Positions 45,917 to 57,707 of a DNA stretch of 64,000 bases are shown here, one piece after another. How positions within the stretch are numbered: the first letter of the stretch is position 1; each line of letters starts with the position of its first letter. The notes beneath the pieces were generated by a model. The model made no database searches. It was not told where the DNA came from and saw nothing but the letters and a program-made list of their open reading frames with translations. The stretch covers positions 1,488,001 to 1,552,000 of the forward strand of contig NZ_JACTAG010000001.1 of assembly GCF_014763045.1 (NCBI RefSeq), in the 5' to 3' direction. A program made the position numbers and the translations under genes. The stretch comes from Sulfitobacter aestuariivivens (GTDB taxonomy: Bacteria > Pseudomonadota > Alphaproteobacteria > Rhodobacterales > Rhodobacteraceae).

Positions 45917-46168
45917 CCGGGCAATCTGGCACGCGCGCAAAGGTGCAACGGTCACACCCCTTGCATCGCGTGGCCTGATGCCGCCATACTTGCCGCATTT
46001 GGACACCGCGAGACGTATTTTGGCTCATCCAGTTTCCCCGCACTCGACGCCCGCCGATACCCAGTCTCGCAATCGGTGCAAAATCGGGTCGGCGGGTGGG
46101 CGTCTTTGGCCGGAACGGCCAAACAGACCGGCCCCGAAACCAGAACCAAGAACCTCCACAGGCCGCCC

Positions 46169-47407
46169 TTGCTTACCTCTTTCCTGACCGGCATTGCAAC
46201 CCCGCCGCGCGGGCTGACACCATCGCGCGCGCGGATGTATCTGATCGTCAAGTTCGGCTCGCTGATCGGGGCTCCGGCGCATTGGCTTTGGGCGGGGTTC
46301 TTTTGGTATCTCGACATCCCCTTTCTGGTGATCTGGAACCTGCTCTCGGGCGTCGTATTCACGGCGGTGTTCCTGTCGATCCACCGACCCGCCGCGATGC
46401 GCCCGTCGATCATCATTGCACTGCTTGAGATCCCGGCACATGCGGTTCTGGCCACGCTCTATCTGGGCATCGCACCCGCCTTCTGGCTCTTTGCGATCCC
46501 CCCCGCGATGCTGAGCCTGGGCATTGATTTCTGGCCGCGCCGCGCCCGTGCGGTCATCGCGACGGTGCTGACCCTGGTGCTGGCCATTTGCCTGACCTAC
46601 GTGGCCTACGCGGGGCCTGTGGCCGACATCCCGCAGGGGTGGATCGCCTTTTTCGCGGCCATCAACGGGTTGGGCGCAACAGGGCAGCTTGTCGTGACCT
46701 TCGGCGTCTTCGATCAGGCCGTCGAACGTACCGAGGCGCGGCTCAAGCGCGAATACGACCGCGCCGAAGGCCTGCTCAAGAACATCCTGCCCGACCCTAT
46801 CGCCCTGCGGCTGAAGGACGGCGAGACGGTCATCGCCGACGAACACAAGGAGGTGTCGGTGGTCTTTGCCGATATCGTCGATTTCACCTCTGCCAGCGCC
46901 CGGCTCAGCCCCCGCGAACTGGTCGAAACTCTCAACACCGTCTTTTCCGAGTTCGACGCGCTGGCGCTGGCGCATGGTGCCGAAAAGATCAAAACAATTG
47001 GCGACGCCTACATGGTGGTCATCGGCGTGCCTCAGGCGCACGAAACCCATGCAGAGGCCGCCGTCGCCTTGGCGGTGGCCATGCACCGCACCGCGACAGC
47101 ACTTGACCATCGGGTCCACTTCCCTGTGCGCCTGCGCATCGGCATCAACTCCGGTCCCGTGGTGGCCGGGGTAATCGGCACCCACAAATTCGCCTATGAT
47201 CTCTGGGGCGACGCGGTGAATGTCGCCAGCCGGATGGAAAGTCACGGCGACGCCAACAAGGTGATGGTCTCCGACAGCACCCGCGCCCTTCTCGGCGGCC
47301 ACTACGCCCTGAGGGACGAGGGCTTGCGCGACCTCAAGGGCAAGGGCCCCACGCAGTTCTGGTCGCTTAAACCCCAAACGGCAGATGTCAAAGGTGCAAC
47401 ATGCTGA
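46169..47407 (+). CDS. Membrane class III adenylate cyclase, first of tandem pair
   Basis: About 412 residues from the TTG at 46169, chosen by alignment with the next paralogue; GTG at 46076 and ATG at 46235 are alternatives and no start has a strong ribosome site. Six hydrophobic helices (about 25-190), a linker KREYDRAEGLLKNILP, then a class III cyclase domain: VVFADIVDFTS and TIGDAYMVV carry the metal aspartates, EKIKT the adenine-selecting lysine, and YDLWGDAVNVASRM the second base contact. Likely makes cAMP. Overlaps the next gene by 7 bp. Confidence 0.9.
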   Translation: MLTSFLTGIATPPRGLTPSRARMYLIVKFGSLIGAPAHWLWAGFFWYLDIPFLVIWNLLSGVVFTAVFLSIHRPAAMRPSIIIALLEIPAHAVLATLYLGIAPAFWLFAIPPAMLSLGIDFWPRRARAVIATVLTLVLAICLTYVAYAGPVADIPQGWIAFFAAINGLGATGQLVVTFGVFDQAVERTEARLKREYDRAEGLLKNILPDPIALRLKDGETVIADEHKEVSVVFADIVDFTSASARLSPRELVETLNTVFSEFDALALAHGAEKIKTIGDAYMVVIGVPQAHETHAEAAVALAVAMHRTATALDHRVHFPVRLRIGINSGPVVAGVIGTHKFAYDLWGDAVNVASRMESHGDANKVMVSDSTRALLGGHYALRDEGLRDLKGKGPTQFWSLKPQTADVKGATC

Positions 47408-48630
47408 TCACAGGTCTGAACCGCATCGCCAGCTTGTTCCTCGCCATCCCCAAGGGTGTCACCGGAGAAGCCGCACGCTTTTATCTGTTCCAGAAATTCG
47501 GCTATTTCATCGCAACCGGACTCCACTTCTTCTGGGCGGTCCTGTTCTTTCTCAACGGCATCCCGGTGATGGGGTACTACAACATCATCGTCTCGGCCCT
47601 GTTTCTCATTACCGGACTGGTCTGGCGCAGAATCGCCAACCCGATGTGGCTTTGTGTCCCGCTTTGGTTGATAGAAGTCCCCTTGCACGCGGCATTGGCC
47701 ACAGGCTTGACCGGCTTCGAAACCCTTTTCTGGCTGGTGCCTATTGTCGCTGCTGCAATCTCGCTTCTGTTTCACCAATGGAGCTGGACAACCCGTGCCA
47801 TGGTCGCACTGGCGTTGGTCATCTTCATGTTGGCCTGCGCGACGCTCGGTTTCTTTGTTGCGCCAAGGGCGGTGTTCAGTCCGCCCAGCGCGTATCTCTC
47901 CATGGCATCCATCGTCCTGTTCACGGTGGGCGGCATGGTCATGTACCTGGGTCTCAATCAATTCGTCGTCGCGGTGACCGAAGCCCGACTGCAGCGCGAG
48001 TATGATCGCGCCGAAGGCCTGCTCCGCAACATCCTGCCCGATGCCATCGCCTTGCGCCTCAAGGATGGCGAGACGGTGATCGCGGACGAACATGCCGAGG
48101 CCAGCGTCATCTTTGCCGACATCGTCAACTTCACCCAGGCCAGCGCCAAATTGACGCCCGCAGAATTGGTCGAAACACTCAACAAGGTCTTCACCGAATT
48201 TGATGCGCTTGCCGAAAAGCACGGCACCGAAAAAATCAAAACCATCGGCGATGCCTACATGGCCGTCGTCGGCATCCCAGAAGCGCAACAAAATCATGCT
48301 AACGTCGCGGTAGACCTCGCGCTCGACATGCTCGCAAGCGCCCGCAGGATCAGTGCCGAAACCCATTTCCCCATCGATCTGCGCATCGGCATAAACTCCG
48401 GGCCGGTCGTGGCGGGCGTGATCGGGTCGCGCAAGTTCGCCTACGATCTCTGGGGGGACGCCGTAAATGTCGCCAGCCGGATGGAAGCACACTCGGAACC
48501 CGGAACGGTGCTGATCACGGATGCGACCAAGAAACAGTTATCAGACCGGTTTACCCTGACGGATGCGGGCACGCGTGAGGTCAAAGGCAAGGGCGTTATG
48601 TCGGTCTACTCTGTCGGTCAGGCGACGTAG
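47401..48630 (+). CDS. Membrane class III adenylate cyclase, second of tandem pair
   Basis: 409 residues. Same plan as its neighbour: six helices (about 20-190, FQKFGYFIATGLHFFWAVLF), the shared QREYDRAEGLLRNILPDAI linker, and a cyclase domain with IFADIVNFTQ, TIGDAYMAVVG and AYDLWGDAVNVASRM. Metal aspartates and the ATP-type lysine (KIKTIGD) are present, so adenylate cyclase is likely. The ATG overlaps the previous stop by 7 bp, an operon formed by tandem duplication. Confidence 0.9.
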   Translation: MLITGLNRIASLFLAIPKGVTGEAARFYLFQKFGYFIATGLHFFWAVLFFLNGIPVMGYYNIIVSALFLITGLVWRRIANPMWLCVPLWLIEVPLHAALATGLTGFETLFWLVPIVAAAISLLFHQWSWTTRAMVALALVIFMLACATLGFFVAPRAVFSPPSAYLSMASIVLFTVGGMVMYLGLNQFVVAVTEARLQREYDRAEGLLRNILPDAIALRLKDGETVIADEHAEASVIFADIVNFTQASAKLTPAELVETLNKVFTEFDALAEKHGTEKIKTIGDAYMAVVGIPEAQQNHANVAVDLALDMLASARRISAETHFPIDLRIGINSGPVVAGVIGSRKFAYDLWGDAVNVASRMEAHSEPGTVLITDATKKQLSDRFTLTDAGTREVKGKGVMSVYSVGQAT

Positions 48631-49188: not shown

Positions 49189-49263
49189 GCGGGCGTAGCT
49201 CAGGGGTAGAGCATAACCTTGCCAAGGTTAGGGTCGGGCGTTCGAATCGCCTCGCCCGCTCCA
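49189..49263 (+). tRNA. tRNA-Gly, anticodon GCC
   Basis: Acceptor stem GCGGGCG/CGCCCGC, anticodon stem TAACC/GGTTA and loop TTGCCAA give anticodon GCC (49221-49223). The T arm reads GGGCGTTCGAATCGCCT, and CCA is encoded. The 3' half is the likely attachment site of the integrase encoded 200 bp downstream. Confidence 0.95.
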
Positions 49264-49460
49264 ATGGGTCTTCTCATAGGAAATCATCACAGAACTAAGT
49301 GATTGATTTCCTAGAGAAGTCCCCAGCAACAAATCTCAGAGCTGAACATACCTGACCAGGGTATCGCACCGATTTGTTGTACAGATGTTGTACAGATCGA
49401 CCTTTTTCGGCGTATGGTTCTCCAGCAACGCTTCGAAAAATCGTACAACAAAGGTGCTCC

Positions 49461-50672
49461 ATGCCCCTGACTGATACCCAAATCAGAGCTTTGTCTCCAT
49501 CTGAAAAGCGTGTTCGCTGCTCGGACGGTGGGGGATTGTTCGTAGAAATTATGCCCTCCGGCAAAAAAGTGTTTCGGCTTGCGTATCGCCTGAACGGTGG
49601 TCAGCGCACAAAATTGATCGGAGATTATCCTCGCACTTCGCTCGCGGATGCGCGTCTCAAAGCTTCTGCATTCAAACTCGACTTGCGTAGTGATGATCCG
49701 GAAGTGGTCGCATTGGCCACACGAAAGCGTGGCTCAGAGATGCCCATCCAGACAGAAGAAGTCAGATGGGAAGACGTCGCGAACGGCTACCTTTTGCTTC
49801 GGCAGCAAAGTAGCCCAGCCGCACGAACGCTGGCGAAACTCAATAGACAGATTGCGGTGACGATTGACGCACTTGGTGATCGCCCAGTAACATCGATCAC
49901 TGCCGAAGACATTCTTGGTGTGGTCAATCCAATCGCCGCATCTGGACGCGTCGAAACTGCGCACGAAATTCGCACACGCTTTTCACAGGTCTTCCGCTAC
50001 GCAGGTGCACGCGGGTTGGTCACACATGATCCAGCAGCATTCACAATCGACGCGATGGTGCCCAGGCGAAGAGGAGAGTTCTCAGGCATCACCGACCCAA
50101 AGGAAGTGGGGAAGTTGCTGGTAGCGATAGACGTTTACCGCGAGAACAACCCAATCGTCGGAGCCGCGTTATTGCTCTCCGCCTATCTGTTCCCAAGAAA
50201 CACCGAATTACGCGGAATGCGCTGGTCAGAGATTGATTGGGGAGCGGCCCGCTGGGAAGTCCCAGGGGATCGTATGAAAATGGGTCGCGACCACATCGTG
50301 CCCCTGCCCTCCCAAGCCATCGATCTTCTCCGCTTAATCAAGAAGTATGATTTTGGTTCTGAGTTTGTTTTGCCCTCACCACGCGACCCTAAGCGCATGG
50401 TCTCAGAGATGACGTTCAATGGTGCGTTGCGCCGCATGGGATACCATTCAGATCGCCACGTACATCACGGGTTCCGCACGACCGCCAGCACCAACCTCAA
50501 TGAAATGGGTTGGAACTACGATTGGATTGAACGCCAGCTTGCGCATGTTCCAGCCAACAAAGTGCGTTCGAGCTATAACAAGGCTCAATATTTGAATGGG
50601 CGGGCAGAGATGATGCAGGCTTATGCTGACTGGCTGGACGTCTGCTTGGAAAAATCTGTCGCTGATCGCTAG
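49461..50672 (+). CDS. P4-type tyrosine recombinase (integrase)
   Basis: 403 residues from MPLTDTQIRALSPSEKRVRC, the DUF4102 N-terminus of tRNA-targeting integrases. Arm-type DNA-binding domain (1-90), core-binding domain (about 95-200), catalytic domain after 210. Catalytic residues: Arg in NTELRGMRWSEID, HGFRTTAS (His-x-x-Arg), LAHVPANKVRSSYNKAQY with the second His and the nucleophile tyrosine. It lies 198 bp after tRNA-Gly and reads away from it. It should insert and excise the island with AlpA as directionality factor. Confidence 0.92.
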   Translation: MPLTDTQIRALSPSEKRVRCSDGGGLFVEIMPSGKKVFRLAYRLNGGQRTKLIGDYPRTSLADARLKASAFKLDLRSDDPEVVALATRKRGSEMPIQTEEVRWEDVANGYLLLRQQSSPAARTLAKLNRQIAVTIDALGDRPVTSITAEDILGVVNPIAASGRVETAHEIRTRFSQVFRYAGARGLVTHDPAAFTIDAMVPRRRGEFSGITDPKEVGKLLVAIDVYRENNPIVGAALLLSAYLFPRNTELRGMRWSEIDWGAARWEVPGDRMKMGRDHIVPLPSQAIDLLRLIKKYDFGSEFVLPSPRDPKRMVSEMTFNGALRRMGYHSDRHVHHGFRTTASTNLNEMGWNYDWIERQLAHVPANKVRSSYNKAQYLNGRAEMMQAYADWLDVCLEKSVADR

Positions 50673-50762
50673 GAGATTTTGAAAAGCTGACCTAAGATCG
50701 ACCGGCCTGGGACTTCGTAACCCTTGGGCATCGCGATGCTCTTCAAACATGGAGAGATCGTG

Positions 50763-50939
50763 ATGCGGATACTATCAAAAAAGCAGTTGAAGGAGTTGGT
50801 CTTGTACTCACCTCAGCATATCGCACGAATGGAAAAAGCCGGGAACTTCCCAAAGCGGATACGCCTCGGCCCAAACCGCGTGGGATGGGTCGAAGATGAA
50901 GTGCTGGAATGGCTTCAGCCCCGGCTTGAACACCGATAG
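50763..50939 (+). CDS. AlpA-like excisionase/regulator
   Basis: 58 residues from the ATG at 50763 (GGAGAG 7 nt upstream). MerR/AlpA helix-turn-helix: LSKKQLKELVLYSPQHIARM, then GNFPKRIRLGPNRVGWVEDEVLEWL. AlpA proteins control integrase direction in P4-like elements. It lies 90 bp after the integrase and before the retron. Confidence 0.85.
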   Translation: MRILSKKQLKELVLYSPQHIARMEKAGNFPKRIRLGPNRVGWVEDEVLEWLQPRLEHR

Positions 50940-50969
50940 CCTCTTACGGCGTTCCTCCTTAGGAGCGTG

Positions 50970-51000
50970 GGATGGCCAAGTGTGCACAACTTGGCCATCC
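50970..51000. repeat. Perfect 12-bp inverted repeat after alpA
   Basis: GGATGGCCAAGT and its exact complement flank a 7-nt loop, 30 bp after the alpA stop. There is no T-run, so it may be a terminator, a protein-binding dyad or part of the island's recombination region. Confidence 0.7.
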
Positions 51001-51185
51001 TAACCAATGATGGTCCGACACGGCGTGTTGCAGACAATAGCATCCCAAGGCGGATTCCGGACCTTCGCCGCGGCCGCACCATCGGCACCATCAAATCCGA
51101 AAGGCCACTGCATTAGCCTACTTCGAGATTTTCGACGGCCATGCCTCCGCAATTGAAATTACACTCCGTAGGGCACATGTTCCGG

Positions 51186-51213
51186 TTGCAAACATGAAAG
51201 ATATTCCGATAAG
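51186..51213 (+). promoter_or_regulatory. Candidate promoter of the retron
   Basis: TTGCAA (51186-51191), a 16-nt spacer and GATAAG (51208-51213, four of six matches to TATAAT). Transcription would start near 51220, just before the a1 repeat at 51223, which is the expected place for an msr-msd RNA. The match is modest and unsupported by data. Confidence 0.4.
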
Positions 51214-51222
51214 CTCCACCTA

Positions 51223-51348
51223 GCTTGCGGATAGATCTTTCCGCTGTGGTTCGCAGCGGGTGAAAAAATTGTTCGGAGGAATTGCTCCTTCGTCATCTTT
51301 GCAACATTGTTGGAAATCCGTGGGTTTGCTCAACGAGTATCCGCAAGC
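51223..51348 (+). ncRNA. Retron msr-msd noncoding RNA
   Basis: An 11-nt perfect inverted repeat bounds it: a1 at 51223-51233 (GCTTGCGGATA) and a2 at 51338-51348. Inside, two stem-loops form the msr: a 6-bp stem at 51241-51246/51254-51259 and a 7-bp stem with one G-U pair at 51274-51280/51286-51292. The msd hairpin uses 51309-51312/51331-51334 and 51314-51318/51323-51327. The G at 51234, right after a1, is a plausible 2'-branch guanosine. It ends 22 bp before the RT start, as in known retrons. Layout resembles the Ec67 msr, with two short hairpins; that comparison is from memory. Predicted msd is short (about 45 nt). Confidence 0.82.
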
Positions 51349-51370
51349 GACTTAAATTGGTGACTTCTTA

Positions 51371-53092
51371 ATGACGACCATGGTTTCTAGGCTTCAAGCA
51401 TGTATTGGTCGTTCCGACCTTTCGAGCCTTCTAGGATTTAAGCCCAAAGCATTTGCGTATGTACTGTTTCATGTTGCCGATGCTGAAAAATATACCGATT
51501 TTGAAATCCCGAAAAAAAACGGCGGAGTTCGGGTCATCTCCGCTCCCATACCACAACTGAAACTCTTACAGTCGAGACTGTCAGAGTGCTTACAAACTTG
51601 TTTGGCAGAGATTGAGAAGGCAGACGGCGTAAAGGAGAGCTGCGCCATTTCTCACGGGTTCCGCAAGGGTCGTTCAATTTACTCGAATGCAGAAGTGCAT
51701 AAGGGGCGGCGCTGGGTCTTCAATATTGACTTAGAAGACTTTTTCCCGAGCATCAACTTTGGACGAGTTCGTGGCTACTTTATCAAAAACAAGAACTTTG
51801 CGTTGAGTCCAGATGTCGCGACTGTCATCGCACAGATCGCATGTCACAAAAACGCCCTTCCTCAGGGAAGCCCTTGTTCACCGGTAATTTCGAATTTGCT
51901 AGCCCACATGTTGGACATGCGGATCAGTCGAATAGCTAAGAAAGCGCGATGCAGTTATACTCGATATGCTGATGACCTGACGTTTTCATGTAGTAAAAAA
52001 TTATTCCCAGATGGCATAGCACAACTGAGCCAAGCCGATCAGGGTGTCTGGATTCCTTCTGACAAACTTAGGCACACAATATTTTCGTCGGGTTTCAAGA
52101 TTAACAAGTCTAAGACAAGAATGCAGGTGTATTGGTCTAGGCAAGATGCAACAGGTTTGGTGGTCAACGCGAAGGTCAATGTCCCGAGAGAATACGTAAA
52201 AACAGCCCGAGCACAATGCCACCAACTGATCACCAAAGGGTCGGTATTCAATAAAGAAGAGTTATGGGGACAAGATGTTAAAGTACCATACGACCCGGCC
52301 AAATTGCAGGGGAAGCTAAGTCACATCTTCAACATCAAAGGCCAAGACCTAAATTTTGAACGACAAAAAGGCTCACTAAAAACGTGGCCAAACTTCTATC
52401 GCGATTACAGGTCGTTTCTAGACTATCAAAGTTTTGGAAGCAGTCCCAAACCGGTGTTTTTGTTTGAAGGAAAGACAGACAACATTTACATTCGGTGCGC
52501 TTTGAACTCGCTAGCAGCGGACTATCCAGAATTAATCTCAGACGGCGCGCCAAAACAACTCATGGTCCGCCTTTTTAACTATTCAAGGCCTACCAATGCC
52601 GTTCAACAACTGGCTGGTGGAACAGGCGATCTCCAACTTCTTATAAACAACTATGAGTTACGGCTCCGAGGGTTTTCTGCTGCAACGTTGGCTTTTCCAG
52701 TTATCTTAGTTGTCGACAACGATAAGGGTTCAACAGACCTGTTTAAAGCCGCCGGGAGCAAGTCAGATACCAAGGCGAAAGTTGATGGATCACAACCGTT
52801 CTATCACATTACGAAGAACCTTTATCTCGTACCGACACCCACACCGAAAGGGATGGTAGAAAGCTACATTGAAACCTTTTTGCCCAACAGCGTTCTAAAA
52901 AAGAAGCTGGGGAAAAAGACGTTTCACCTTCCGGAAAAAGGATTTGATGTCACGAAACACTTTGGAAAGGTGCTGTTGGCTGAGCAGATCGTTCAGCGTC
53001 AACAAAAAGCTATCAGTTTTGTTGGCTTCAAGCCACTCCTCGATAACATGCGGGCTGCTATGCAGGACTACGCTGCAAAGATGGCACCATGA
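51371..53092 (+). CDS. Retron reverse transcriptase fused to TOPRIM (Ec67 / RT-TOPRIM type)
   Basis: 573 residues. RT domain (about 30-300) with the catalytic FNIDLEDFFPS (Asp120), PQGSPCSP (164-171) and YADD (199-202). Retron-specific marks are NAEVH (106-110, the NAxxH motif) and ATGLVVNAKVNVPREY (260-275), where VTG reads ATG. The C-terminal region (about 360-480) is a TOPRIM domain: LFEGKTDNIYIRC (Glu366) and VILVVDNDKGST (Asp449, Asp451), all acidic residues kept. It makes the msDNA from the adjacent ncRNA; the TOPRIM part is the likely toxic effector of abortive infection. No strong ribosome site is seen before 51371. Confidence 0.93.
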   Translation: MTTMVSRLQACIGRSDLSSLLGFKPKAFAYVLFHVADAEKYTDFEIPKKNGGVRVISAPIPQLKLLQSRLSECLQTCLAEIEKADGVKESCAISHGFRKGRSIYSNAEVHKGRRWVFNIDLEDFFPSINFGRVRGYFIKNKNFALSPDVATVIAQIACHKNALPQGSPCSPVISNLLAHMLDMRISRIAKKARCSYTRYADDLTFSCSKKLFPDGIAQLSQADQGVWIPSDKLRHTIFSSGFKINKSKTRMQVYWSRQDATGLVVNAKVNVPREYVKTARAQCHQLITKGSVFNKEELWGQDVKVPYDPAKLQGKLSHIFNIKGQDLNFERQKGSLKTWPNFYRDYRSFLDYQSFGSSPKPVFLFEGKTDNIYIRCALNSLAADYPELISDGAPKQLMVRLFNYSRPTNAVQQLAGGTGDLQLLINNYELRLRGFSAATLAFPVILVVDNDKGSTDLFKAAGSKSDTKAKVDGSQPFYHITKNLYLVPTPTPKGMVESYIETFLPNSVLKKKLGKKTFHLPEKGFDVTKHFGKVLLAEQIVQRQQKAISFVGFKPLLDNMRAAMQDYAAKMAP

Positions 53093-53119
53093 ACTGCGAA
53101 GTTGCAACATTGAGAGGTC

Positions 53120-54220
53120 TTAGAATGGGATTTCATCATCCAACGATCTACTGCTTGAAGAAATCTCCGAAACCTCAATTTTCCCCGAAGTCAGTGAAAA
53201 GCTAGCCTCAGAACTTCCAGCTATTCGATGACGCCGAGCGATCTTCTGTGCTGCGGGGGTGAAAGGCTCGTCGCCTTCGGTAGTCACTAGTCCGACCTCA
53301 ATGTAATAACTCATCAATCGGTCTAGATTTGTTTTCGAAATTTTGAATTTGCCTGAAGTATCAATTCCGGAAACCTCACCAGCCAAGGCGGAACCAATTG
53401 CGATGCACGATTCGTCTTCGTCAATATGGTAAAAATATTGATCGTTCCAATCGTTTACACCCCACTTCAGATTGCCGTGGAAGACTGTAAAGGCTGATAT
53501 CCAACTACATTCGATCTTGGCATAACTTCCAGCGCTTGGGGCGGAAGCGTAACCACCTGATTCAGTTGCGGGCATCAAATCCAAGCCGACCAAGTCATTG
53601 GCTTCAGGTATTTCCGGCAGTGGGACGTCAATCTTCAATCGGCCAAGGGCCTCCTTGAAGGCTCTGTTTTCTTTGCGCACTAAATGAAGTTCTTCTAGCG
53701 CTTCCAAACTCGCAGTTGTGTCTCCTCGCACCCAACCGACTCTGGGCTTAGTCGCTTTTGCATTGTCGAGTGCCTCGCGCACAGCGAGTTTTAATCCCTC
53801 CACTGACTTCCAAGTTTTTCGCAAACGACCTTTTTCAGCTTCCGCAATAAAATCCTTCAAACGTTTCTTGCCAGAGGATGTTTCCTCAGATTTGTCGGCT
53901 TCAATGCGCCCGGGTTCTTCGTGAAGCATCACCAATATTGGGATTCCCTTTGAGGCAGCGTATCGAAATTCTTTGTGGGTGTAACTAATACCATCTTCCG
54001 CAACCGAGCCGTATCGGCCAGCGATAATGAGGATGTAGTAATCACATTGATCAATAAGTGTTTTGATGAATTCAAACTGATCTTCATCTGCGGCGGGGAA
54101 CGATTCCATCTGAACCGGAAAATCTCCAGTGCTGATAACTACATCCTGCACAGCTCGTCGTTCAACTGTTAGATCAATGAAAGTGGAGCTTATGAAAACT
54201 TGATAGCGCTTTTCGTTCAA
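53120..54220 (-). CDS. DUF4062 domain protein
   Basis: 366 residues with a TTG start at 54220, supported by a GAGGA site. N-terminal DUF4062 domain (about 5-90): YQVFISSTFIDLTVERRAVQ, then DYYILIIAGRYGSV and SYTHKEFRYA. This fold is TIR-like and often sits at the front of NTPase defence proteins. Here the NTPase is missing; a coiled/helical middle (100-200) and an unassigned C-terminus follow. Converges on the retron RT with a 27-bp gap. AT-rich like the RT. Could be a separate antiviral gene; function inferred. Confidence 0.82.
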   Translation of the reverse strand: MNEKRYQVFISSTFIDLTVERRAVQDVVISTGDFPVQMESFPAADEDQFEFIKTLIDQCDYYILIIAGRYGSVAEDGISYTHKEFRYAASKGIPILVMLHEEPGRIEADKSEETSSGKKRLKDFIAEAEKGRLRKTWKSVEGLKLAVREALDNAKATKPRVGWVRGDTTASLEALEELHLVRKENRAFKEALGRLKIDVPLPEIPEANDLVGLDLMPATESGGYASAPSAGSYAKIECSWISAFTVFHGNLKWGVNDWNDQYFYHIDEDESCIAIGSALAGEVSGIDTSGKFKISKTNLDRLMSYYIEVGLVTTEGDEPFTPAAQKIARRHRIAGSSEASFSLTSGKIEVSEISSSSRSLDDEIPF

Positions 54221-54357
54221 TGTTGTTCCTCTTCGGCGGCAATCTTAGGTTAACGCCTCATGATCTGAAAGCCAAATACTTGAAGTTCAGTCTATGTCCA
54301 TTCCCGCGTGCTGCACTGCAGCAATAGTGCGCCCAGCAAACGGCAGCAATGGGCCGA

Positions 54358-56384: not shown

Positions 56385-56459
56385 AGTGTGTTCCTCTTTT
56401 TGGGTCTAAGATTAGGTCAACATGGATAGAGACACAGACTTTGATTAGGGGCAATTACT

Positions 56460-57707
56460 ATGACACGAAACGACTTGATTAGAGTTCTCAGCTTGATCGC
56501 AGCGATGGTAAGTACTAGCGCACTTGCTCAAGATGCGACCCCGCGCCCTGCCAAGGTGGCTACCGTAGTCGCGTCTGACACCGTAATTTCGCGCAAATAC
56601 CCCGCCGTTGTGTTGCCGTCGCAAGAGATCGAACTGTCGTTCAAGGTGTCGGGCCAAATCATTGAGCTGCCAATACGTGCGGCGTCTAATGTGAGCGCAG
56701 GAGACACCATCGCACAGATCGACACACGCGACTTTGAGAACCAGATTTCTCAACTCCAAAGCAGTCGTGACCAAGCTACAGCACAGCTTGAGGCCCTAAG
56801 AGCAGGCGCACGACCCGAAGAAATTGCAGCCCTAGAGGCCGCCGTTGCATCGGCCCAAGCGCAAGTAGAGCAAACAACCGATGCTTTGACACGCGCCGAA
56901 GCGTTGCTGGAGCGGGGCGTGGCCACGCGGGCGCAAGTTGAAGGTGCACAGGCAGAAGCGCGCGTAGCACAAGCGAATTTGCGGGCGCAGGAAGAGCAAC
57001 TGCGGATTGGCGAGATCGGTGGGCGTCCGGAAGAGATTGCAGCGTCTGAGGCGGTTTTGCGCGGGATCGACACCCAGATTAAGGTAGCGCGGGACAATCT
57101 GTCCGATGCGACACTGACCGCCCCTTTTGATGGCATCATCGCGCGGCGCGATATTGAGAATTTCTCAAACGTATCCGCAGGCCAAAGCATCGCCCTGCTT
57201 CAACGGTTGGAAGTTGTGCATTTGGCTTTTGATATTCCAAGCATTGATGTCACCGAACTTACCCGCAATGGACCGGGTAGCATCACCAACATTGCCACCT
57301 TTAACTCCTTGCGTGGTCAAGAGTTCGAGACCGAACTCGTAGAGTTTTCTGTGCAGGCCGACAGCGCTACACAAACCTACCGTGGTCGCGTTTCAGTGAC
57401 TGTACCTGAAGGGGCCGTTATCCTGCCCGGAATGGTTGCGAGCGTTATTTCTTCTACACAAGGATCAGCTGCGCAGGTCGCAGCACCTCTTTCCGCCATC
57501 GCAGCAGAACCCGATGGGTCACCCTTCGTCTGGTTGGTGTCGGATGATGGCAAAGTCTCTGCACAAAAGGTGTCACTGGGTGAAGCAACTGGTGCAAGCG
57601 TCGTCATCAGCGAAGGGTTGTCTGATGGCGATACCATCGTGTCAGCCGGTGTCAGCGAGATAATTGACGGCATGACCATCCGTCCGATCACACGCGTGGG
57701 GAACTGA
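56460..57707 (+). CDS. RND efflux periplasmic adaptor (membrane fusion protein)
   Basis: 415 residues with a signal peptide ending ALAQ. Order: barrel-sandwich half (FKVSGQIIELPIRAASNVSAGD), long alpha-helical hairpin (about 95-205, TRAEALLERGVATRAQVEGAQ), second lipoyl half (TLTAPFDGIIARRDIENFSNV), beta-barrel and membrane-proximal domain. It links the inner-membrane pump to an outer-membrane channel. Pairs with the pump starting 5 bp downstream. Confidence 0.93.
   Translation: MTRNDLIRVLSLIAAMVSTSALAQDATPRPAKVATVVASDTVISRKYPAVVLPSQEIELSFKVSGQIIELPIRAASNVSAGDTIAQIDTRDFENQISQLQSSRDQATAQLEALRAGARPEEIAALEAAVASAQAQVEQTTDALTRAEALLERGVATRAQVEGAQAEARVAQANLRAQEEQLRIGEIGGRPEEIAASEAVLRGIDTQIKVARDNLSDATLTAPFDGIIARRDIENFSNVSAGQSIALLQRLEVVHLAFDIPSIDVTELTRNGPGSITNIATFNSLRGQEFETELVEFSVQADSATQTYRGRVSVTVPEGAVILPGMVASVISSTQGSAAQVAAPLSAIAAEPDGSPFVWLVSDDGKVSAQKVSLGEATGASVVISEGLSDGDTIVSAGVSEIIDGMTIRPITRVGN

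Follow-up and report, generated by a model that had tools for sequence, protein, structure and literature searches.

Does the reverse transcriptase (RT) gene of this 64-kb window, the whole stretch of 64,000 nucleotides that was analysed, belong to a working retron? It could also be an RT of another class lying behind a chance repeat, or the decayed passenger of a mobile element, and the gene that faces it raises the further question of whether the two act together. Our analysis indicates that the locus is very probably an intact type I-C retron (Ec67/Eco2 family), which shares a 21.5-kb integrative element at tRNA-Gly with a Swarozyc-like gene. The retron is an ordinary further member of a known family and not something new.

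An RT-Toprim fusion protein with intact motifs

The ORF at 51371-53092 on the plus strand encodes 573 amino acids, running from ATG to stop without interruption, and a single match to it is present in its own genome. Its product matches the PADLOC model RT-Toprim_I-C (PDLC02966) over residues 3-571 with 694.8 bits (E 2e-209), the NCBIfam model NF038237 (retron_Ec67_fus) with 669.7 bits against a cut-off of 450, and the Retron Ec67 protein of the PDB over residues 2-567 (E 2.2e-104). By sequence it belongs to the RT-Toprim proteins of PADLOC type I-C, the Ec67/Retron-Eco2 family.

The RT half (51371..52450, plus strand, about residues 1-360, the boundary being drawn from the alignment to Eco2 RT residues 1-368) contains NAEVH at residues 106-110, YADD at 199-202 and a VTG-like motif in which V is replaced by A260, giving A260-T261-G262. 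The Toprim half (52451..53092, same strand, about residues 361-573 with the stop) contains E366, D370, D449, D451 and E501, whose putative catalytic role is assigned after Eco2 (PMC12405507). The original prediction had given the RT motifs and Glu366, Asp449 and Asp451 at these very residues. Among 19 aligned RT-Toprim proteins, N106, H110, Y199, D201 and D202 are invariant (19/19), and so are the Toprim positions E366, D370, D449, D451, E501 and K533 (19/19); T261 is invariant as well, and G262 nearly so.

Seven active-site positions have been named for the Toprim domain of Eco2, including D378, S513, E515 and K562 (PMC12405507). Five of the seven align, with E366, D370, D449, D451 and E501, of which D370 and E501 are the counterparts of Eco2 D378 and E515. 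Eco2 S513 lies opposite Y499, with a Ser one residue earlier. For K562, where PDB numbering counts an Asp, no counterpart could be placed, and the invariant lysine K533 aligns with Eco2 K546. The Toprim half evolves under purifying selection, as judged from a dN of 0.084 and a dS of 2.25 that is near saturation; in the RT half, dS is saturated.

These features bear on the idea that the retron is a decayed passenger of the element, which no longer produces msDNA or defends its host. Broken relatives do exist: the RT of L002 is cut and adjoined by a transposase-like ORF set, L010, L064 and L066 carry stops, and L025 is a Toprim-half remnant with the upstream RT motifs missing. Against decay stand the full-length frame, the intact catalytic motifs, the low dN/dS of the Toprim half and the fit of the upstream RNA to a covariance model built blind to it (see below). 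We therefore consider decay of the window copy very improbable and take the retron to be intact.

A conserved non-coding RNA upstream of the gene

Directly upstream of the gene, the arms a1 (IRa1, GCTTGCGGATA, 51223..51233) and a2 (IRa2, TATCCGCAAGC, 51338..51348), both read on the plus strand, pair as a perfect 11-bp inverted repeat around a folded RNA, as first proposed. The whole 64-kb window holds 3 inverted repeats of this type (arms of 11, loop of at least 60, span of at most 250). Shuffling of 51001-51370 yielded such an 11-bp repeat in 165 of 20000 cases, which is not very rare and is the point in favour of an RT of another class (group II intron, DGR or Abi/DRT) with a chance upstream repeat. 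On its own, the a1/a2 repeat is weak evidence, and it is the comparative evidence that is decisive.

Upstream regions of 24 I-C loci were screened for long-range complementary arms, and 21 distinct RNAs entered the alignment (A1). Omitted from it were L066 (no usable arms), L005 (identical to L004 there) and L065 (for its 229-nt span), while L002, L010 and L067 were unused for the RNA set. L004, L005 and L032 have an arm mismatch and, together with L065, were placed by hand. The layout is constant throughout the 21 RNAs: a1 has A as its last nucleotide and is followed by an invariant G, an A, one stem-loop, a variable stretch, GAG, and an a2 whose first nucleotide is T.

The original prediction had made its case depend on covariation in homologous upstream RNAs. 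Such covariation is found, with changes on both sides in 17/19 pairs of the 21 aligned RNAs: 10/11 pairs of the a1/a2 helix and 7/8 pairs of the msr stem-loop (RSL; 51241..51259, plus strand, 8 bp with a 3-nt loop in the fold of the window). Paired cells amount to 95.7% in the alignment, versus 79.7% in shuffles and 30-43% with slid partners. Four of five covariation measures beat the shuffles (0/500 as high); the measure of further standard pair types, over the same 21 RNAs, was not above them (364/500 as high). The a1/a2 arms were picked for pairing, so that this helix is partly selected, which is not the case for the msr stem-loop.

For a blind test, a covariance model was trained on 19 relatives, leaving out both the window and L003. 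Run on the window, it returned a single match up to E 1, exactly at 51223-51348 (83.5 bits, E 5.3e-19). It also matches the copy of genome G193 (E 1.4e-19) and two E. coli Ec67-type loci that were likewise outside the model, L141 (E 5.3e-18) and L142 (E 4.3e-16). On 13 loci whose RT match stops short of the Toprim half, which represent 10 places and have incomplete family labels, it gave one weak match (L017, 12.5 bits, E 0.45). Rfam has no match at 51223-51348. Covariation and blind recovery together indicate that the upstream non-coding RNA is real. The RT-Toprim locus L065 (3562-3790, minus strand) scores 11.4 bits on the model; its a1-a2 span of 229 nt, compared with 117-141 nt, would mean a much longer msd, if real.

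Positions of the predicted msDNA were calibrated on L142, the Ec67-type retron of E. coli NCTC8623. Its core nucleotide 12 corresponds to the Eco2 branch guanosine rG15, and its core positions 46-49 have the sequence A A U G, matching Eco2 rA49, rA50, rU51 and rG52 (PMC12405507 numbering). The same offsets give an msd of 67 nt in L142, equal to the length reported for Eco2 (PMC12405507), and of 66 nt in the window. By this alignment, the branch guanosine (2'-5' priming G) is predicted at 51234, the invariant G that follows a1 in 21/21 RNAs, and the msd template at 51271..51336, both on the plus strand, A51336 being the first nucleotide copied.

When the retron part is compared with G193 in stretches of 150 nt, conservation peaks at 86% identity in 51246-51394, mostly ncRNA; the other stretches up to the retron stop reach 71-83%. 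A promoter scan gave 1 site, versus 4.0 expected, which is uninformative, and 5 terminator-like sites were counted, versus 3.6 expected.

Placement of the reverse transcriptase

A tree was computed from 37 RT cores. One of its branches separates the 16 RT-Toprim (I-C) rows from all others (support 95/99, and 97% of 200 bootstrap trees), and the RT of the window pairs with L003 of genome G193 (100/100). The remaining rows are 16 non-I-C RTs and five unlabelled RTs that are probably group II-like. The former were taken from 17 RTs of the same family and class of bacteria labelled by PADLOC, L031 being left out; for the latter, six loci were tried and a usable frame was present in five. The label St85like of three rows comes from NCBIfam, one of them scoring slightly below its cut-off. 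The tree includes a long branch (L083) and six rows of odd composition, two of them I-C. The group II maturase model scores 63.8 bits on the RT-Toprim protein, against its cut-off of 300.

The RT falls with retron I-C RTs, on which placement the original prediction had staked itself, and its assignment to the RT-TOPRIM (Ec67-class) retrons is borne out by the family models, the PDB match and the tree. An RT of another class behind a chance repeat is next to impossible, being ruled out by the covariation of the RNA, the blind covariance-model match and the RT tree. The reading of the locus as a type I-C retron is thus retained, and no observation speaks against its membership.

An integrative element at tRNA-Gly

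The ‘roseobacter-type island’ first proposed as the setting of the retron is essentially borne out: an element of 21.5 kb at tRNA-Gly is delimited by 20-bp direct repeats, and among named relatives the nearest is a Sulfitobacter MAG, from a genus of Roseobacteraceae. The left attachment repeat (49246..49265, plus strand, 20 bp exact) lies in the 3′ end of tRNA-Gly 49189-49263. The right one (L138:6772-6791) lies beyond the window on the same contig, 21.5 kb downstream. Within the window itself, nothing closely resembling the tRNA 3′ end turned up; the right repeat appeared in the next 60 kb of the same contig. The related genome G1065 displays an empty site, in which this tRNA is followed directly by a terminator-like stretch and by a gene resembling (67% DNA) the gene that follows the right repeat in the source genome. 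Near both ends of the element there is a further, imperfect repeat (18 of 20, E 0.80), which may be an integrase arm site or may have arisen by chance.

The element carries a tyrosine integrase (49374..50672, plus strand; PF00589, PF22022 and PF13356; coordinates of the longest ORF, with a provisional start codon), an AlpA-like regulator (50763..50939, plus strand; PF05930, 39.4 bits), the retron, the DUF4062 gene discussed below, a second recombinase, an ion channel, an RND pump and, further on, a DnaG-like primase. The efflux genes were unusable as backbone markers, since window positions 56400-57700 were matched in 5/58 genomes of the genus, own genome included and one over 28 bases only. 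The Rfam family Trans44_sRNA (50729-50992, plus strand, 160.2 bits) spans the whole AlpA-family ORF, and this ‘sRNA’ may in fact be the alpA mRNA. At 46076-48630 (plus strand), two tandem paralogous genes resemble adenylate/guanylate cyclases, as read by eye from their translation.

A Swarozyc-like gene convergent with the retron

Facing the retron, on the minus strand at 53120..54220, lies a gene for a DUF4062 (TIR-like) protein (Pfam PF13271, 95.7 bits), a homologue of Swarozyc. The protein has the DUF4062 domain with TIR-like fold that characterizes Swarozyc, and it aligns over residues 3-214 with KpSwz of PDB entry 10wc (phmmer, E 3.6e-52). E84 is invariant in 49 aligned DUF4062 sequences, that of the window and 48 of 120 listed homologues, and stands opposite an Ala in the solved KpSwz chain. 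If this Ala is read as the E97A construct described for KpSwz (PMC13174449), E84 would be equivalent to KpSwz E97 and would be the putative catalytic Glu. The structure model (pLDDT 73.8, pTM 0.42) gave mostly low TM-scores in Foldseek. Its fold comparison covered mainly residues 4-159, and the solved KpSwz was absent from the best 50 matches in either fold comparison (library to April 2026).

KpSwz has been described as an NADase of abortive infection that is triggered by the phage portal, bound by its C-terminal HTH/winged auxiliary domain (PMC13174449). By homology to Swarozyc, the product of 53120-54220 might likewise have a portal-triggered NADase activity.

DNA similarity with G193, which belongs to another genus, begins just upstream of the ncRNA and stops just past the DUF4062 gene. 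It delimits a cassette of ncRNA, RT-Toprim gene and DUF4062 gene (51075..54297) with 78% DNA identity in a different context, the flanks being different. Within the closest clade, in the three loci with readable DNA, those of the window, G193 and L002, the retron and the DUF4062 gene are convergent and 26-27 nt apart; L002, from the Sulfitobacter MAG, has kept the cassette in part, with a truncated RT. A tblastn search of the DUF4062 protein against the retron loci, most of which have only about 1.5 kb of flanks, gave matches only in the own genome, G193 and L002.

Do the two genes form one functional unit? The msDNA-RT complex could also restrain or prime the TIR-like NADase, as a second effector in trans, and such a composite immune unit would couple two death effectors to one or two phage signals. 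The convergent arrangement kept in the three loci, the similarity with G193 confined to the cassette and the dN/dS of the DUF4062 gene (0.060-0.067 in three comparisons) are consistent with this idea. However, KpSwz is active alone in E. coli, and DUF4062 genes generally adjoin varied defence systems (PMC13174449). Moreover, the two genes are convergent and form no operon, DUF4062 was matched at these three retron loci only, given the short flanks of most others, and these represent one lineage and perhaps one event. Coupling of the two appears improbable to us. The likeliest reading is that of two independent abortive-infection systems travelling together.

The main text of PMC13174449 does not mention retrons, and our literature search returned no paper containing both ‘retron’ and ‘DUF4062’. 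The pairing is a modest example, open to testing, of defence genes that travel jointly. Beside the G193 cassette, a 236-aa ORF (L097:526-1236, plus strand) resembles by eye a DUF4435/TOPRIM-type defence protein, with no Pfam match up to E 0.01.

Proposed function of the retron

An anti-phage role of the retron is suggested by its homology to Retron-Eco2. In Retron-Eco2, RT-Toprim and msDNA form a trimer that inhibits itself. The Toprim domain of Eco2 cleaves RNA, defence is lost when the active site of this domain is mutated, and phages that escape have mutated denB (PMC12405507). On the basis of this mechanism and of the five Toprim positions out of seven that align, we infer an RNA-degrading abortive system with msDNA as the sensor.

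By analogy with Eco2, msDNA synthesis, the complex, the RNase activity, the trigger and the defence would proceed as follows. The RT half would copy the msd RNA from 51336 back to 51271, starting from the 2′-OH of G51234, and the product DNA, about 66 nt long, would be kept joined to the msr RNA. The complex of RNA, DNA and protein would keep the Toprim nuclease fused to the RT in an inactive state. If a phage activity damaged or displaced the msDNA, the Toprim domain would be released and, once free, would cut RNA, so that infection is stopped and the cell is lost.

The original prediction spoke of a functional, single-gene-plus-RNA defence system. Its RT-Toprim gene and RNA are both confirmed, whereas ‘single-gene’ has to be amended, the DUF4062 gene being conserved beside them. 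The anatomy of the locus is established about as far as sequence allows, and ‘functional’ is carried over from Retron-Eco2.

Relatives and comparison with known systems

The RT-Toprim family is already known, with solved structures (PDB 9i2f, 9lm3) and thousands of homologues; 7932/7995 scored candidates were homologues at E of at most 1e-3. Ec67-type matches above the family cut-off occur in 8/390 genomes of the order and in 6/385 genomes of the class, own genome included in both, two of the latter six being interrupted by stops. A scan of genome contigs yielded one relative, L002 (66 stretches, 1 confirmed). Matches were found in 450/72,556 plasmid records, 18 of them over at least 80% of the query, in hosts from Staphylococcus to Sinorhizobium, and in 59/50,697 phage records, all below 60% identity and 1 covering at least 80% of the query. 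A single-protein scan of viral contigs gave no relative (7 pattern-matching stretches, 0 confirmed). Ec67-type retrons are thus sparse yet widespread. The L095 locus is matched in 538/5426 complete E. coli genomes, 510 of these records at at least 99% identity. L025 (1501-2331, plus strand) is an I-C Toprim half with no RT motifs upstream of it within a stretch of 3.8 kb, either a remnant or a split-off effector.

For the genus, a retron with an NDT gene has been described in Sulfitobacter faviae (PMC10221251); the term Toprim does not occur in the accessible text of PMC12548924. The present locus provides a clean alphaproteobacterial example of type I-C, with an RNA predicted to the nucleotide. 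The alignment of 21 RNAs extends a common layout from E. coli to roseobacters, though Rfam is without a match to the window copy.

Likeness to Swarozyc (KpSwz, a DUF4062 TIR-like NADase; PMC13174449; PDB 10wc, 11cq and 11cv) concerns the N-terminal TIR-like domain, residues 3-214, while the C-terminal domain of the 53120-54220 protein does not align with KpSwz by sequence. The Ec67-family retrons of other Rhodobacterales, such as Litoreibacter arenae (P0028) and Paracoccus jeotgali (P0034), share 50% protein identity and the same domain order with that of the window. L032, whose protein agrees with P0028 over the compared part, has the same RNA layout. These retrons differ in their neighbourhood, no DUF4062 gene being present within the flanks of about 1.5 kb in the Rhodobacterales loci L004, L006 and L032.

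Retron-Eco2/Ec67 of E. coli (PDB 9i2f, 9i2g, 9s1f and 9lm3) displays the same full-length RT-Toprim fusion and Toprim acidic residues, the same branch G after a1, a single msr stem-loop and an msd of 66-67 nt at equal offsets. The Ec67-type protein of L142 has 36% identity with that of the window. Their msd sequences differ by eye except for a common GGAGGAAT patch, and the stretch before a2 reads ACGAG in the window versus AGGAG in L142 and AAGAG in L141. The settings also differ: the window retron resides on a tRNA-Gly element, whereas at L141:3474-4317 and L142:3019-4008 the E. coli Ec67-type retrons directly adjoin a gene annotated as phage portal, the kind of protein that triggers KpSwz (PMC13174449).
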